Assembly: GCA_016866215.1 (NCBI GenBank)
Contig: VGNE01000019.1
Location: forward strand, 1-59,873
DNA: 59,873 bases
Direction of reading: 5' to 3'
Origin: Chloroflexota bacterium
Lineage (GTDB): Bacteria > Chloroflexota > Anaerolineae > Anaerolineales > Villigracilaceae
Both the position numbers and the translations under genes were made by a program. Below are positions 10,499 through 48,234 of this stretch, piece by piece. How positions within the stretch are numbered: the first letter of the stretch is position 1; the number at the start of each line of letters is the position of its first letter. The notes beneath the pieces are model-generated. The model made no database searches. It saw nothing but the letters and a program-made list of their open reading frames with translations, and had not been told where the DNA came from.

Positions 10499-10508
10499 GA
10501 TTAACGGT

Positions 10509-10977
10509 GATTTACGATTTACGATTGGTGATTTACGATTGTGTGATGGCTGTGATTGCTTCTGAAGATTGTCTTGAGTGATGAGCTGCAAAAGGAGAAC
10601 AGCATGGATGAAAAGACTTTTAAAGCCAGAACGAAAAAATTGGCGGTTGCGATAATAAAGCAAGTTGATAAATTACCCCGTTCTCTTGCAGCGGATGTGA
10701 TTGCTAGACAACTTATACGGTCAGGCACGTCCATTGGGGCGAACTATCGCGCCGCGTGCCGCGCAAAATCAACACCTGATATGATCAATAAGATGAAAAC
10801 TGTTGAAGAGGAGAGCGACGAAACGGCTTATCGGCTTGAAATTCTGGTCGAATCAGGAATAGTTCAGCAGGGGCAAGTTTCTGGTTTGTACAAAGAAACC
10901 AATGAAATCCTAGCCATGACTGTGGCATCAATCAAAACCCTCCGCAATCGAAAATCGTAAATCTGAATTCGTAAATC
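10509..10977. mobile_element. Four-helix-bundle gene cassette with inverted repeats
   Basis: The unit GATTTACGATT occurs three times, partly overlapping, at 10509-10540. Its exact complement AATCGTAAATC is at 10953-10963, with a near copy at 10967-10977. The bounded block of about 470 bp contains only the four-helix-bundle gene. It begins 10 bases after the stop codon of the zinc-binding protein and ends 3 bases before the ATG of the ABC ATPase, so it separates genes that normally adjoin. Confidence 0.6.
10604..10960 (+). CDS. Four-helix bundle protein (S23/IVP family)
   Basis: A 118-residue all-helical protein of the family first seen in intervening sequences of 23S rRNA. The diagnostic segment is IRSGTSIGANYRAACRAKS, followed by KMKTVEEESDETAYRLEIL. 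Family members assemble as ring-like oligomers and their function is unknown. The start was chosen at MDEKTF because AAAAGGAG lies directly upstream. It sits alone between the binding-protein and ATPase genes of a metal importer, in the same direction, flanked by inverted repeats, and has no evident connection to metal transport. I take it for an inserted cassette. Confidence 0.88.
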   Translation: MDEKTFKARTKKLAVAIIKQVDKLPRSLAADVIARQLIRSGTSIGANYRAACRAKSTPDMINKMKTVEEESDETAYRLEILVESGIVQQGQVSGLYKETNEILAMTVASIKTLRNRKS

Positions 10978-10980
10978 AAA

Positions 10981-19346: not shown

Positions 19347-19383
19347 AAAAGTGACAGTCACCTTTAAGGTGACTGTCACTTTT
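19347..19383. repeat. Nested palindrome, copy 3 (37 bp)
   Basis: Perfect 18-bp arms (AAAAGTGACAGTCACCTT) around one base, between convergent genes. The stop codon TGA of pxpA lies inside the right arm. T-runs on both sides are short but make this the most terminator-like of the four copies. Confidence 0.9.
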
Positions 19384-32422: not shown

Positions 32423-32559
32423 GGTAAACCTCCTGAATTTGGCGCATCATACCTCACAAAGATTAATCCCCCTCCGCCGATTCCCCGACGATTTCCCCAC
32501 GAAATACAGTTAAAAGCCGCCAACAAGAAAAATCTGCGGATATTATTTGTTTGACAGGA

Positions 32560-43688: not shown

Positions 43689-44765
43689 ATGAGTTTTGAA
43701 TTTATTCTTCGCATTATTGGAATGATCGTACTGGCAGTTACCGGGGGATATTTGGGATTTGATCTCTCAAGGTTTTCACCTTCTGACGCCATCCGCACCA
43801 CACTTGTCTTTGCTCTGGTCGGCGCGCTCACAGGCCTGATCCTGACCCCATACTTCACGACCCGCCCTGCGCGCGCCTTGCGTTCCCTGCTTGGGCGGCT
43901 TGCGGCAGAGAGTCTTTTCGCCGGGTTAACGGGTTTGATAGCTGGTTTGCTTATTGCCGCATTGCTGGCATTTCCGCTTTCATTGCTTCCGAAACCCTTA
44001 GGCGAGATATTGCCTTTTGTGGGCGTTTTGATCTTCTCCTATTTCGGCGTGTCTCTCTTTGTCACCCGTCAGGGTGACATTATGGGCTTGCTCAGCGCGT
44101 TAAGTGGACGCGGCGAAGGAGGCGGTTCTTCCTCCTGGAGCAACCTCAACCGCAATATCCTGCTCGATACGAGCGTCATCATTGATGGACGTGTGTCAGA
44201 CATCGCCAGGACCGGATTTTTACCCGGCACGCTGCTCATCCCCCGCTTTGTATTGAACGAACTGCAAAACATTGCAGATTCCTCTGACGGTATGCGCCGC
44301 CAGCGCGGACGCCGCGGCATGGAAGTGCTCGCCGAACTGCAAAAACTTCCCAATGTCCTCGTCCGCATTTCTGACATCAACGTGGACGGCGTGCGCGAAG
44401 TGGACGATAAACTGGTTGTGCTTGGCAAACAACTCAAATGCCCGGTCCTGACCAATGACTACAACCTCAACCGCATCGCGGAATTACAAGGCGTGACTGT
44501 GCTTAACATCAATGAATTGGCGAACGCCATAAAATCGGTTGTATTGCCGGGCGAAGCCTTGCGCATCAACATCATGCAGGAAGGCAAGGATCACAGCCAG
44601 GGCGTGGGCTATATGGAGGACGGCACCATGGTGGTGGTGGAAAACGGCAAGGAGTATATCGGTGAGTACATGGATGTGAACATTACCAAGGTCCTGCAAA
44701 CCGCCGCAGGCCGCATGATCTTTGGCCGTGTGGATGAAGAGGCATTGGCGAAAAGGAAAAAATAA
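43689..44765 (+). CDS. PIN/TRAM-domain membrane protein
   Basis: A 358-residue protein of the YacL type: four membrane helices (1-130), a PIN nuclease domain (LLDTSVIIDGRVSDIARTG, LNELQNIADSSD, VLTNDYNLNRIAEL) and a C-terminal TRAM domain (VVENGKEYIGEYMDV). It probably acts as a membrane-bound RNase. A strong AAGGAG precedes the start. In many bacteria such genes precede isoprenoid or cysS genes; here cysS follows after the inserted GxxExxY cassette. Confidence 0.87.
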   Translation: MSFEFILRIIGMIVLAVTGGYLGFDLSRFSPSDAIRTTLVFALVGALTGLILTPYFTTRPARALRSLLGRLAAESLFAGLTGLIAGLLIAALLAFPLSLLPKPLGEILPFVGVLIFSYFGVSLFVTRQGDIMGLLSALSGRGEGGGSSSWSNLNRNILLDTSVIIDGRVSDIARTGFLPGTLLIPRFVLNELQNIADSSDGMRRQRGRRGMEVLAELQKLPNVLVRISDINVDGVREVDDKLVVLGKQLKCPVLTNDYNLNRIAELQGVTVLNINELANAIKSVVLPGEALRINIMQEGKDHSQGVGYMEDGTMVVVENGKEYIGEYMDVNITKVLQTAAGRMIFGRVDEEALAKRKK

Positions 44766-45230
44766 TCCGCAGATTTGACAGATTTAGCAGATTGAAAAAA
44801 ATCAAATGAAGATCGTTGACGAGCGGGACTCACAGACTTACGCCATAATTGGTGCGGCGATGGAAATCCACCGTCAGTTGGGGCATGGATTTCTTGAAGC
44901 TGTATATCAGGAAGCGGCGGTCATTGAGTTCCCCTTAAAACAAATCCCTTTTGAGCGGGAAGTCAATTTACCTGTAAAATATAAAAACACAGCGCTCCCA
45001 ATTCATTACCGCGCTGACTTTATTTGCTTTTCCGAGATCATTGTGGAATTCAAAGCTTTATCCCGACTCTCAAGTGTGGAAGAAGCGCAGTTATTAAACT
45101 ACCTCAAAGCCACCGGACTACAACGCGGCTTGTTGATTAATTTTGGAACATCAAGCTTGCAATACAAGAGACTCGTCTGGGGCTACAAAGACCAATAAAA
45201 AAATCTGCCCAATCCGCGTAATCTGCGGAT
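44765..45230. mobile_element. GxxExxY gene cassette with 11-bp inverted repeats
   Basis: ATCCGCAGATT at 44765-44775 and its exact complement AATCTGCGGAT at 45220-45230 bound a 466-bp block holding only the GxxExxY gene. A second inner pair (GCAGATTGAAAAAAA / AAAAAAATCTGC) adds to the symmetry. It starts at the stop codon of the PIN gene and ends 16 bases before the cysS ATG. Confidence 0.65.
44806..45198 (+). CDS. GxxExxY protein
   Basis: A 130-residue PD-(D/E)xK-fold protein. The name-giving motif is GFLEAVY (28-34); the nuclease-like core is YRADFICFSEIIVEFKAL, and LLNYLKATGLQRGLLINFG follows. The catalytic pattern D-x-n-ExK is present (D in RADF, E and K in VEFKAL), so nuclease activity is possible, but the biological role of the family is unknown. 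No ribosome binding site is visible. It is flanked by inverted repeats and splits the PIN and cysS genes. Confidence 0.9.
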   Translation: MKIVDERDSQTYAIIGAAMEIHRQLGHGFLEAVYQEAAVIEFPLKQIPFEREVNLPVKYKNTALPIHYRADFICFSEIIVEFKALSRLSSVEEAQLLNYLKATGLQRGLLINFGTSSLQYKRLVWGYKDQ

Positions 45231-45246
45231 GAATTAAGGTAATCAT

Positions 45247-46644
45247 ATGCTAAAAATCTACAACACCCTCACCCGCAAGACGGAAGAATTTCAAACCCTC
45301 GAACCGGACCTCGTAAAAATGTACGTCTGCGGTGTGACGGTTTACAACGATGCGCATGTCGGCCACGCTATGTCTGCGCTTGTCTTCGATATCATCCGTC
45401 GTTATTTGGAATATCGCGGACACACTGTCAAGCACGTCATGAACTACACCGACGTGGATGATAAGATCATCCAGCGCGCAAAGCAGCTTAACGAAGACCC
45501 GCTTATACTTTCACAGCGTTACATTGAAGATTACACACAAGACCTTGCCAGCCTGAATGTGCTTCCCGCCACATCCTATCCGCAGGTCAGCAAGACCATG
45601 CCGCTCATCATTAAATTCATTGAAGTCCTGATCCAAAAGGAAGCCGCTTACGCCGCGCCCAATGGAGATGTTTACTTCAGCGTCATCAGCGACAAGGATT
45701 ATGGCAAACTTTCCGGGCGCAAACTGGACGACATGCAGGCAGGCTCGCGCATCGAAGTGGAGGAAGCCAAAGACCACCCAATGGATTTCGCCCTCTGGAA
45801 AGCCGCAAAGCCCGGCGAAATTTCATGGGACAGTCCCTGGGGCAAGGGCCGCCCGGGCTGGCACATCGAATGCTCGGCCATGAACCTCGCTGAACTAGGC
45901 GAACAGATTGACATTCACGGCGGCGGCAATGACCTGATCTTCCCGCATCATGAAAATGAGATCGCACAAACCGAAAGTTACACAGGCAGGGAATTCGCGC
46001 GCTATTGGGTTCACAACGGCATGTTGCAACTCGGCGGCGAAAAAATGTCAAAGTCATTGGGCAACATTGTCAGCATCAAGGAATTCTTATCACAGCGTGA
46101 AGCGGATGTGATGCGAATGCTCGTCTTGAACGGGAGCTATCGTGCGCCATTGCTTTTCAATGATGACACATTGGACGCTGCGCAGAAAAACGTCGAGCGC
46201 CTCAAATCCGCCCTGCGGCCTGCTTCTGCTTCTGCAAGCGGACTCGCCGCTGACGCAATCGCTGCCCTCGCGTCTGCAAGCGAATCAGCCAAAACAAACT
46301 TCACCGATGCCATGGATAACGACTTCAACACCGCAGGCGCCATCGCTGTGTTGTTCGAACTGTCCAAATTCATCAACACCGCGCGTGACAACAGCGCAAC
46401 GGGTGAACAACTCAAATCCGCGCAAGGCGTCTTCCGTGAATTATCGAGTGTGCTTGGACTGAAACTCGAAGAGAAAAAAGGTTCAGGTGATGCAGAGGCC
46501 TTCATTAACCTGCTGATCGAAGTCCGCGCGGAAGTGAGAAAGCAGAAGTTATGGGCGCTCTCCGACCAGATCCGCGACAAGTTGAAGGAACTCAACGTGA
46601 TCATTGAAGACAGCAAAGATGGAACGAAGTGGCGGTATTTGTAA
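45247..46644 (+). CDS. cysS: Cysteine-tRNA ligase
   Basis: A 465-residue class I synthetase. The HIGH-type motif is NDAHVGHA and the signature is KMSKSLGN. Zinc ligands are expected at the Cys in MYVCGVTVY, in HIECSAMNL and in the PHHENE stretch. A low-complexity Ala/Ser segment (residues about 321-340, PASASASGLAADAIAALASA) is unusual for the family. The start has AAGG nine bases before it. The last 43 codons have a diverged second copy 1.5 kb downstream beyond the Fic gene. Confidence 0.95.
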   Translation: MLKIYNTLTRKTEEFQTLEPDLVKMYVCGVTVYNDAHVGHAMSALVFDIIRRYLEYRGHTVKHVMNYTDVDDKIIQRAKQLNEDPLILSQRYIEDYTQDLASLNVLPATSYPQVSKTMPLIIKFIEVLIQKEAAYAAPNGDVYFSVISDKDYGKLSGRKLDDMQAGSRIEVEEAKDHPMDFALWKAAKPGEISWDSPWGKGRPGWHIECSAMNLAELGEQIDIHGGGNDLIFPHHENEIAQTESYTGREFARYWVHNGMLQLGGEKMSKSLGNIVSIKEFLSQREADVMRMLVLNGSYRAPLLFNDDTLDAAQKNVERLKSALRPASASASGLAADAIAALASASESAKTNFTDAMDNDFNTAGAIAVLFELSKFINTARDNSATGEQLKSAQGVFRELSSVLGLKLEEKKGSGDAEAFINLLIEVRAEVRKQKLWALSDQIRDKLKELNVIIEDSKDGTKWRYL

Positions 46645-48201: not shown

Positions 48202-48234
48202 AAGTGACAGTCACCTTAAAGGTGACTGTCACTT
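48202..48234. repeat. 33-bp nested palindrome, copy 4
   Basis: Identical to copy 1. It lies between the cysS fragment and rlmB; its right end directly adjoins the TATAAT box of rlmB, so it occupies the -35 region. Confidence 0.9.

Follow-up and report, generated by a model that had tools for sequence, protein, structure and literature searches.

The closest described systems to the element treated here are the 23S rRNA intervening sequences, the repetitive extragenic palindromic (REP) sequences with their REPINs and RAYT genes, and the insertion sequences with their miniature inverted-repeat transposable elements (MITEs). In Coxiella, according to PMC4990558, the S23 open reading frame (ORF) lies in the loop of an intervening sequence of 428-444 nt with complementary ends, RNase III cuts the element in vitro, and mobility is suspected and unproven; such sequences were once proposed to be mobile elements with a mobility-serving ORF (Ralph and McClelland 1993, cited in PMC4990558). 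The subject of this work is a cassette of 466 bp on contig VGNE01000019.1 of a Chloroflexota bacterium of the family Villigracilaceae (GCA_016866215.1); the whole stretch analysed, positions 1 to 59,873, is called the window. The cassette is most likely a minimal mobile element, in which a small PD-(D/E)XK nuclease gene of the GxxExxY family lies between inverted ends made of tandem units. It would work most like the REPIN/RAYT systems, as a gene with palindromic offspring that match it, and is built like a 23S intervening sequence, and it belongs to neither, since it has no HUH transposase and does not lie in rRNA where this was tested.

By comparison with the 23S intervening sequences, the GxxExxY cassettes have a similar size (median 503 bp, against the 428-444 nt of the Coxiella element), a single small ORF and complementary ends. 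An rRNA match was found in none of the 20 GxxExxY loci scanned, and the window copy lies between PIN/TRAM and cysS, so that the link to 23S rRNA drawn for GxxExxY genes in an earlier, sequence-only reading of this DNA found no support. The protein also differs, with a nuclease fold instead of the S23 four-helix bundle, as do the ends, which are arrays of tandem units whose type tracks the protein clade and which bear no sign of selection for RNA pairing. The likeness to REP/REPIN and RAYT lies in short extragenic palindromes, which reach high copy numbers in some genomes, and in a related gene that stands between matching repeats. In contrast to those systems, the sole inside gene is PF13366/TIGR04256, a PD-(D/E)XK nuclease and not an HUH enzyme (TnpA-REP), and the ends of the window clade are arrays of about 9-bp units beginning with TCC, not the GTAG- or CGTC-tagged palindromes of those systems. 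Insertion sequences and MITEs share with the cassette the terminal inverted repeats, the one gene and the gene-less derivatives; unlike them, the cassette has no known transposase and no detected target-site duplication, and is mostly placed at stop-to-start junctions in operon sense. Target-site duplications are not known from IS200/IS605-like elements either.

The cassette in the window consists of the following features.

44765-44793, plus strand: left end, three units of about 9 bp, ATCCGCAGATT TGACAGATT TAGCAGATT
44765-44775: ATCCGCAGATT of the left end, which shares its first A with the PIN/TRAM stop codon, TAA (44763-44765), as the third base of that codon
44806-45198, plus strand: GxxExxY gene, 130 aa, PD-(D/E)XK nuclease fold, with TIGR04256 and PF13366 matches
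45202-45230, minus strand: right end, the unit type inverted; read inward, ATCCGCAGATT ACGCGGATT GGGCAGATT
45220-45230: exact complement of ATCCGCAGATT, followed by 16 bases (45231-45246) and the cysS ATG at 45247

The cassette was confirmed at these positions. As described in the sequence-only reading, 466 bp with perfect 11-bp inverted repeats run from the stop codon of the PIN/TRAM gene to 16 bases before cysS and enclose a single ORF co-directional with both neighbours, which are on the plus strand; no second ORF of at least 60 aa was found on the cassette strand. That description of the repeats was exact in position and incomplete in extent, the perfect 11 bp being the outer tip of three-unit ends that form a longer imperfect inverted pair (44760-44793 and 45202-45235, 76% complementary), with inverted similarity over about 29-34 bp. 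The unit type is CRCAGATTN, of about 9 bp, present three times per end and inverted around the gene. The inverted-end score of the window copy is 28, modest yet over the cut of 24. The exact 11-mer occurs three times in the window, at the two cassette ends and as a lone copy, and with one mismatch allowed three were found against 1.8 expected, so that this count alone is weak; the decisive evidence for the ends is comparative. The lone copy of ATCCGCAGATT (32531-32541) is inverted, has no partner copy near it and is possibly a solo end.

We collected 178 GxxExxY loci, of which 99 belong to the genus and 79 do not (L029 and L218 being identical in sequence), and scored the inverted ends of 172 of them, leaving out rows with a domain score below 60 or a flank below 180 bp. 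The score was over 24 in 149 of the 172 genes, against 5 of 516 same-size pseudo-placements nearby, 1 of 254 neighbour ORFs (defined by length, not by annotation), 3 of 119 ORFs that are 200 aa or longer, and none of 30 PIN genes. When one random member was taken per insertion site, 73 of 91 sites passed. Inverted ends are general around GxxExxY genes. Chance repeats around an ordinary operon gene would agree with the near-random 11-mer count in the window, but this explanation is hardly credible, being contradicted by the prevalence against four controls, by conservation across phyla and by the boundaries described below. A swapped-flank control in the first 84 usable loci was useless for significance, nearly all of them sharing the unit (13 of 84 exceeded the 99% swapped score), and it was replaced by the position, ORF and PIN-gene controls. 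A direct-orientation score over 24 was obtained in 53 of 172 genes, partly from loci with several arrays. In arms with a clear period, this was 9 (40 arms), 10 (14) or 8 (8); visual judgement contributed to the orientation, period and tandem structure assigned to single loci.

The sequences of the units differ among GxxExxY ends, CGCAGATT, CACGGAGA and CGCGAATG being among them. In the window's genome, which comprises 3.74 Mb on 128 contigs, six GxxExxY genes are full-length and a seventh is a fragment; by eye the six full-length genes carry six different inverted tandem units: CGCAGATTA, ACGCGAAGA, CACGGAGA, CACGGATTT, GAACAAAGAT and ACGCGAATG. Five of these six genes score over 24; L005 scores 21 and the fragment, L007, 15. 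A search of 57 congeneric genomes showed, among the matches listed, GxxExxY genes in at least 52 of them, frequently with several copies in one genome. In G046:C44 a GxxExxY gene was given as two adjoining part-matches, L231 and L232, in a single open frame; it is related to L230, elsewhere in the same genome.

The type of unit goes with the protein. Protein similarity to the window copy was the sole criterion for picking 80 loci, which come from 18 named phyla, with no phylum assigned to 5 of them. Of these loci 78 were usable, and in 66, from 17 named phyla, the window's CGCAGATT-type unit stands forward upstream and inverted downstream, with at least two units on each side in 47. When units on either strand were counted, two or more stood in the upstream stretch of 64 loci and in the downstream stretch of 61, as compared with 25 of 784 control stretches. 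The consensus of the window clade (56 aligned elements), read inward from both ends, is TCCRCAGATTACRCAGAT. Each locus was labelled by the simple majority of the four bases after CRC, and the 26 of 178 loci that stayed unlabelled were left out of the tree. On the protein tree of 75 genes, one per insertion site and poorly resolved (41 of 71 inner branches open), the label changed 15 times, the minimum possible being 11; in 500 shuffles the minimum was 20 and the mean 22.7, none being as low as 15. The AGAT label against the rest required 6 changes (shuffled minimum 15) and a genus-only tree of 27 rows 13 label changes (shuffled minimum 15). No signal of phylum was found in a poorly resolved protein tree of 45 rows, on which phylum changed 32 times against a mean of 32.9 in 500 shuffles, 179 of which were as low. 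The left and right ends of one locus are more alike than permuted ends (78 loci, 0 of 2000), and the core units persist where synonymous sites are saturated, as in L065/L074 (dS 3.69, dN/dS 0.02). At the level of aligned sequences, these comparisons demonstrate that the units are clade-specific and constrained. The supposition of the sequence-only reading that the repeats track the gene is thus supported, by the shared unit in the relatives, by the label that follows the tree and by the 149 genes with inverted ends.

The gene and its ends were found together at other sites. Five loci (four genomes) at one other site were compared with the window cassette. The DNA similarity always sets in at 44759-44766, and in four of the loci (L029, L030, L165, L218) it runs to 45229-45235, which bears out the earlier expectation that gene and terminal repeats form one unit; in L156 it stops inside the gene, at 45181. 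A further relative, L031, is similar over 44824-45236. Desulfofustis L065 and Verrucomicrobia L074 agree at 77% over 421 bp, with clear similarity within the element only. Among the pairs from different sites, the 40 best listed show no similarity farther than 112 bp upstream or 99 bp downstream of the domain, and it is often lost before the left end (e.g., L192/L210). For the pairs examined, the inverted repeats are the limits of similarity between sites. As read from these alignments, the gene and its ends form a single unit in inheritance and transfer, both among sites and across phyla. The order PIN-GxxExxY-cysS, whose conservation had been named beforehand as evidence against such movement, is not conserved. 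From 74 genomes with a PIN gene, 30 loci were read, the window's own and 29 of congeners; in 21 of the latter PIN and cysS are adjacent, always without the cassette, and in the other 8 there is no cysS within reach. Besides the window, L028 and G413 were the only two seen with a cassette between PIN and cysS.

The window protein was assigned to its family by TIGR04256 (E 4.8e-42, 143 bits against a cut-off of 35) and PF13366 (E 1.7e-38, 132 bits against a cut-off of 22). In 38 aligned sequences the motif G28-x-x-E31-x-x-Y34 is invariant, and E31, Y34, D71, E81, K83, Q95, and N98 are invariant in all 38; the catalytic D...ExK of PD-(D/E)XK enzymes corresponds to D71, E81, and K83 and is intact in every one. 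The AlphaFold2 model reached a pLDDT of 91.3, and its best Foldseek match was Cas4 (4ic1, E 1.4e-4, TM 0.46-0.57), with RecE, lambda exonuclease, and MGME1 at weaker E; no credible relative in the PDB was found by sequence. From its residues and its model, the protein is expected to be an active nuclease. The dN/dS values, 0.00-0.09 in the 10 of 18 pairs where the ratio is defined, indicate strong purifying selection. Plasmid matches came from 8 records, all below 60% identity, and phage matches were not found. No explanation of the family was found in the literature searched, in which PMC8934634 names it, nor do the titles and abstract openings there mention terminal repeats of GxxExxY genes; this literature was mostly without subscription papers and without bioRxiv, and a report elsewhere is possible. 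Several proteins of the window clade end in ...NLRE(S) (L035, L043, L065, L103, L106, and others), and in L065 this C-terminus is encoded by the right-end repeat itself, so that gene and end overlap.

We favour the reading, with a probability of about 0.55, that the GxxExxY nuclease acts on its own end repeats and that host enzymes complete the movement. The nuclease would recognise and cut the end repeats of its own clade, as duplex or as single-strand hairpin, and host repair or replication would finish the move without target duplication. Placement from stop to start in the direction of the operon would spare the host genes and allow the nuclease to be expressed by read-through transcription. 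Gene-less hairpins would be non-autonomous derivatives, and four-helix-bundle genes a parallel class. The sequence-only reading had thought of small genes without a transposase of their own; ends in step with the protein fit the nuclease as the end-recognising factor better than they fit an outside route common to all. Neither is proven, and the view of genes that merely hitch-hike was probably wrong. A host-serving or addictive module, with the nuclease acting in defence or as toxin and the repeats as operators or transcript-end signals, would be compatible with the strong purifying selection and with single genes at orthologous junctions in several congeners. It is nevertheless very improbable: operators are not expected inverted downstream, as dispersed gene-less hairpins or at the limits of similarity, and the window cassette has no second ORF on its strand at the 60-aa threshold.

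In the 160 loci with clear ends, the stop of an upstream same-strand ORF lies nearby in 134, with the left end from 5 bp before to 4 bp after that stop in 68 of the 134, and close same-strand ORFs are present on both sides in 122 of 160. In 154 loci the directions of the two neighbours were compared with that of the gene: both agree with it in 116 and both are opposed in 3; ordinary adjacent gene pairs are co-directional in 213 of 292. This bias is clear, and its simplest account is dependence on operon read-through for expression. It would also be explained by an RNA-level element of the 23S type, whose ends pair in the operon transcript, with the ORF being released from the host message when RNase III cleaves the resulting stem, and any movement going via RNA. 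Such a reading can call on the S23 element of Coxiella, cut by RNase III in vitro, and on the four-helix genes with complementary ends found here. It loses weight because the arm mismatches are not biased toward G.U: 216 of G.U type against 268 of A.C type were counted in the 160 loci (62 against 73 in the first 57). The 20 loci free of rRNA matches also stand against it, and a stem alone would not need clade-specific units, so that we consider it quite unlikely.

Just outside the ends of the 56 window-clade elements, T-(A/T)-A is favoured. The target-site duplications that the sequence-only reading had proposed to look for were not found: none of these 56 elements has one of 5 bp or more (permuted mean 3.2), and over all ends there were 8 of 153 against a permuted mean of 6.6. 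At least five junctions of sister genomes (L255, L257, L258, L260, L261) hold, by eye, a different palindrome; L261 is a gene-less GxxExxY-type hairpin where relatives hold four-helix cassettes of two types (L240/L241 and L243/L244). Such junctions are recurrent targets. A turnover hotspot was seen before a dihydrolipoamide acyltransferase-like gene, named by eye (L240, L241, L243, L244, L261, L263, and L015, the last placed by eye); depending on the congener, it is occupied by four-helix cassettes, which are of two repeat types, or by GxxExxY-type repeats in sequence that has no gene. The cassette-free PIN-cysS junctions (L109-L135) often show 7-bp-type repeats behind the PIN stop, then a hairpin that resembles a terminator, and one-sided end-like units immediately before cysS, and in L134 (G020) TAATCCGCAGA follows directly on the PIN stop. 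At least two inverted units near cysS were present in 7 of 20 such gaps, and at least one unit in 12 of 20 against 57 of 240 controls.

The window contains a second cassette, with a four-helix-bundle gene and matching architecture, as had been noted from its sequence.

10508-10978, plus strand: second cassette, four-helix-bundle gene, TIGR02436 match at 10625-10942
10508-10558 and 10929-10978: inverted GATTTAC-type arms of the second cassette

TIGR02436 is the family to which the S23 proteins belong. The window's genome has 13 matches to it, all with inverted ends scoring 26-54 (swapped-flank 95% level 24, maximum 58), and their units are mostly of 7 bp (AAGGATG, GATTTAC, AGTGTCA). Inverted ends were present in 26 of 35 four-helix genes against 6 of 210 controls, and the arms with clear periodicity had periods of 7 (20 arms) or 8 (5). 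These ends also go with the protein (Mantel r 0.33, 506 different-site pairs, 0 of 500), and L020 and L021, two cassettes at different sites of the window's genome, are alike over the element. The four-helix-bundle cassettes share the GxxExxY architecture, with their own units of about 7 bp. Of the common mobilisation route proposed earlier for both kinds of gene, the shared plan stands; the two kinds of unit have different periods (about 9 against 7) and different sequences. At 2025-2068 of the window there is a gene-less hairpin of 7-bp GTCGAAA units, an end of the four-helix-bundle type.

A scan for gene-less hairpins of matching unit types gave 6 in 232 kb of genus loci and 16 in 472 kb of other loci, one of them being counted in both; a reversed-sequence control of about 0.70 Mb gave none. 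The window's genome has two degenerate CGCAGATT-type hairpins and one solo end (L011, L012, L009). A strict hairpin pattern occurred in 13 of 400 genomes of the phylum, with tens of matches in some, counts that include overlapping and both-strand matches and exceed the true copies, and a control pattern gave 0. A relative of the window protein at E 1e-28 or better is present in 5 of the 13 hairpin genomes against 25 of the 387 others. A resident GxxExxY gene with the unit of the hairpin was seen in G340, G099, and G413, that is, in 3 of the 12 hairpin genomes with GxxExxY; hairpins with a matching resident gene also occur in G000. The evidence for mobilisation of hairpins in trans by a resident gene is mixed. 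The CGCAGATT hairpins L356-L359 and L361-L364 (G340, G347, G303) are embedded in longer sequence that they have in common, GTCCGCAG..CTGCGGAC, flanked by CTAACCCT- and TTGCA-type stretches, which suggests a second, larger repeat containing them. Another dispersed family in the window comprises four near-perfect palindromes of 33-37 bp, AGTGACAGTCACC..GGTGACTGTCACT, at 156-188, 1274-1306, 19347-19383, and 48202-48234; its 13-mer has 8 matches in the window against 0.04 expected.

Several points weigh against the reading in which the nuclease acts on its own ends. A PD-(D/E)XK enzyme is not known to join DNA by itself, and movement was not seen. Of the 172 scored genes, 23 are at or under the cut, including L005 of the window's genome. 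The linkage of unit and clade, taken alone, could come from co-inheritance of adjoining DNA; the units kept at saturated synonymous sites and the match between the two ends argue against co-inheritance alone. The dN/dS ratio is undefined in 8 of 18 pairs, with dS saturated or zero, and L174/L175 have dN 0.015 at dS 0. Many cassettes are orthologous within the genus, the 178 loci falling into 94 site clusters, so that moves would be infrequent and many cassettes old. The empty sites that had been proposed as a check were sought in 11 site comparisons with sister genomes and no clean one was found, the junction holding other sequence. In the other 9 of the 12 hairpin genomes the inspected genes (17, not all of those present) have other or unclear ends; G448, the richest in hairpins with 94 pattern matches, has two GxxExxY genes, and the one inspected carries CACGGAT ends. 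GxxExxY genes occur in 12 of the 13 hairpin genomes but also in 11 of 17 chosen comparison genomes.

These hairpin genomes lend weight to a different explanation, in which a hairpin family is spread by some other factor (replication slippage, or another nuclease or transposase acting in trans) and GxxExxY is cargo kept for an unrelated benefit. Non-homologous four-helix-bundle genes on an identical plan, the end-like repeats at cassette-free junctions such as the PIN-cysS gaps and an orientation bias that suggests selection on expression are also in its favour. Cargo, however, need not match its ends, yet the unit type tracks the protein clade across phyla and the period tracks the protein family (9, 10, or 8 for GxxExxY; 7 or 8 for four-helix genes); moreover, two classes of cargo with two classes of ends argue against a single carrier. 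Taking both sides into account, we regard this explanation as unlikely, though a serious one.

Returning to the nuclease that acts on its own end repeats, close relatives that share repeats and distant ones that have others point to an overlooked kind of tiny mobile element. A bolder form of the idea is put forward only tentatively, as possible but with the odds against it: a categorically new class of mobile element, in which a lone nuclease like Cas4 or lambda exonuclease, without transposase, would read a tandem code in its own inverted ends. The code words would be clade-specific, most of them built on CRCNRAKNN, orthogonal families in one genome would shed hairpin offspring, and an unrelated four-helix-bundle protein would have converged on the plan with a seven-base code. 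If this were true, the 23S intervening sequences would be one site-specific branch of the class.

GxxExxY genes are widespread, multi-copy and unexplained, and ends that go with the protein give two orphan families a testable function, the recognition of their own ends. They also offer a possible origin for many extragenic hairpins, and the old idea of the 23S intervening sequences as mobile elements becomes testable. If the nuclease does read the repeats, these families would provide many natural pairs of a small protein and a short DNA code word.

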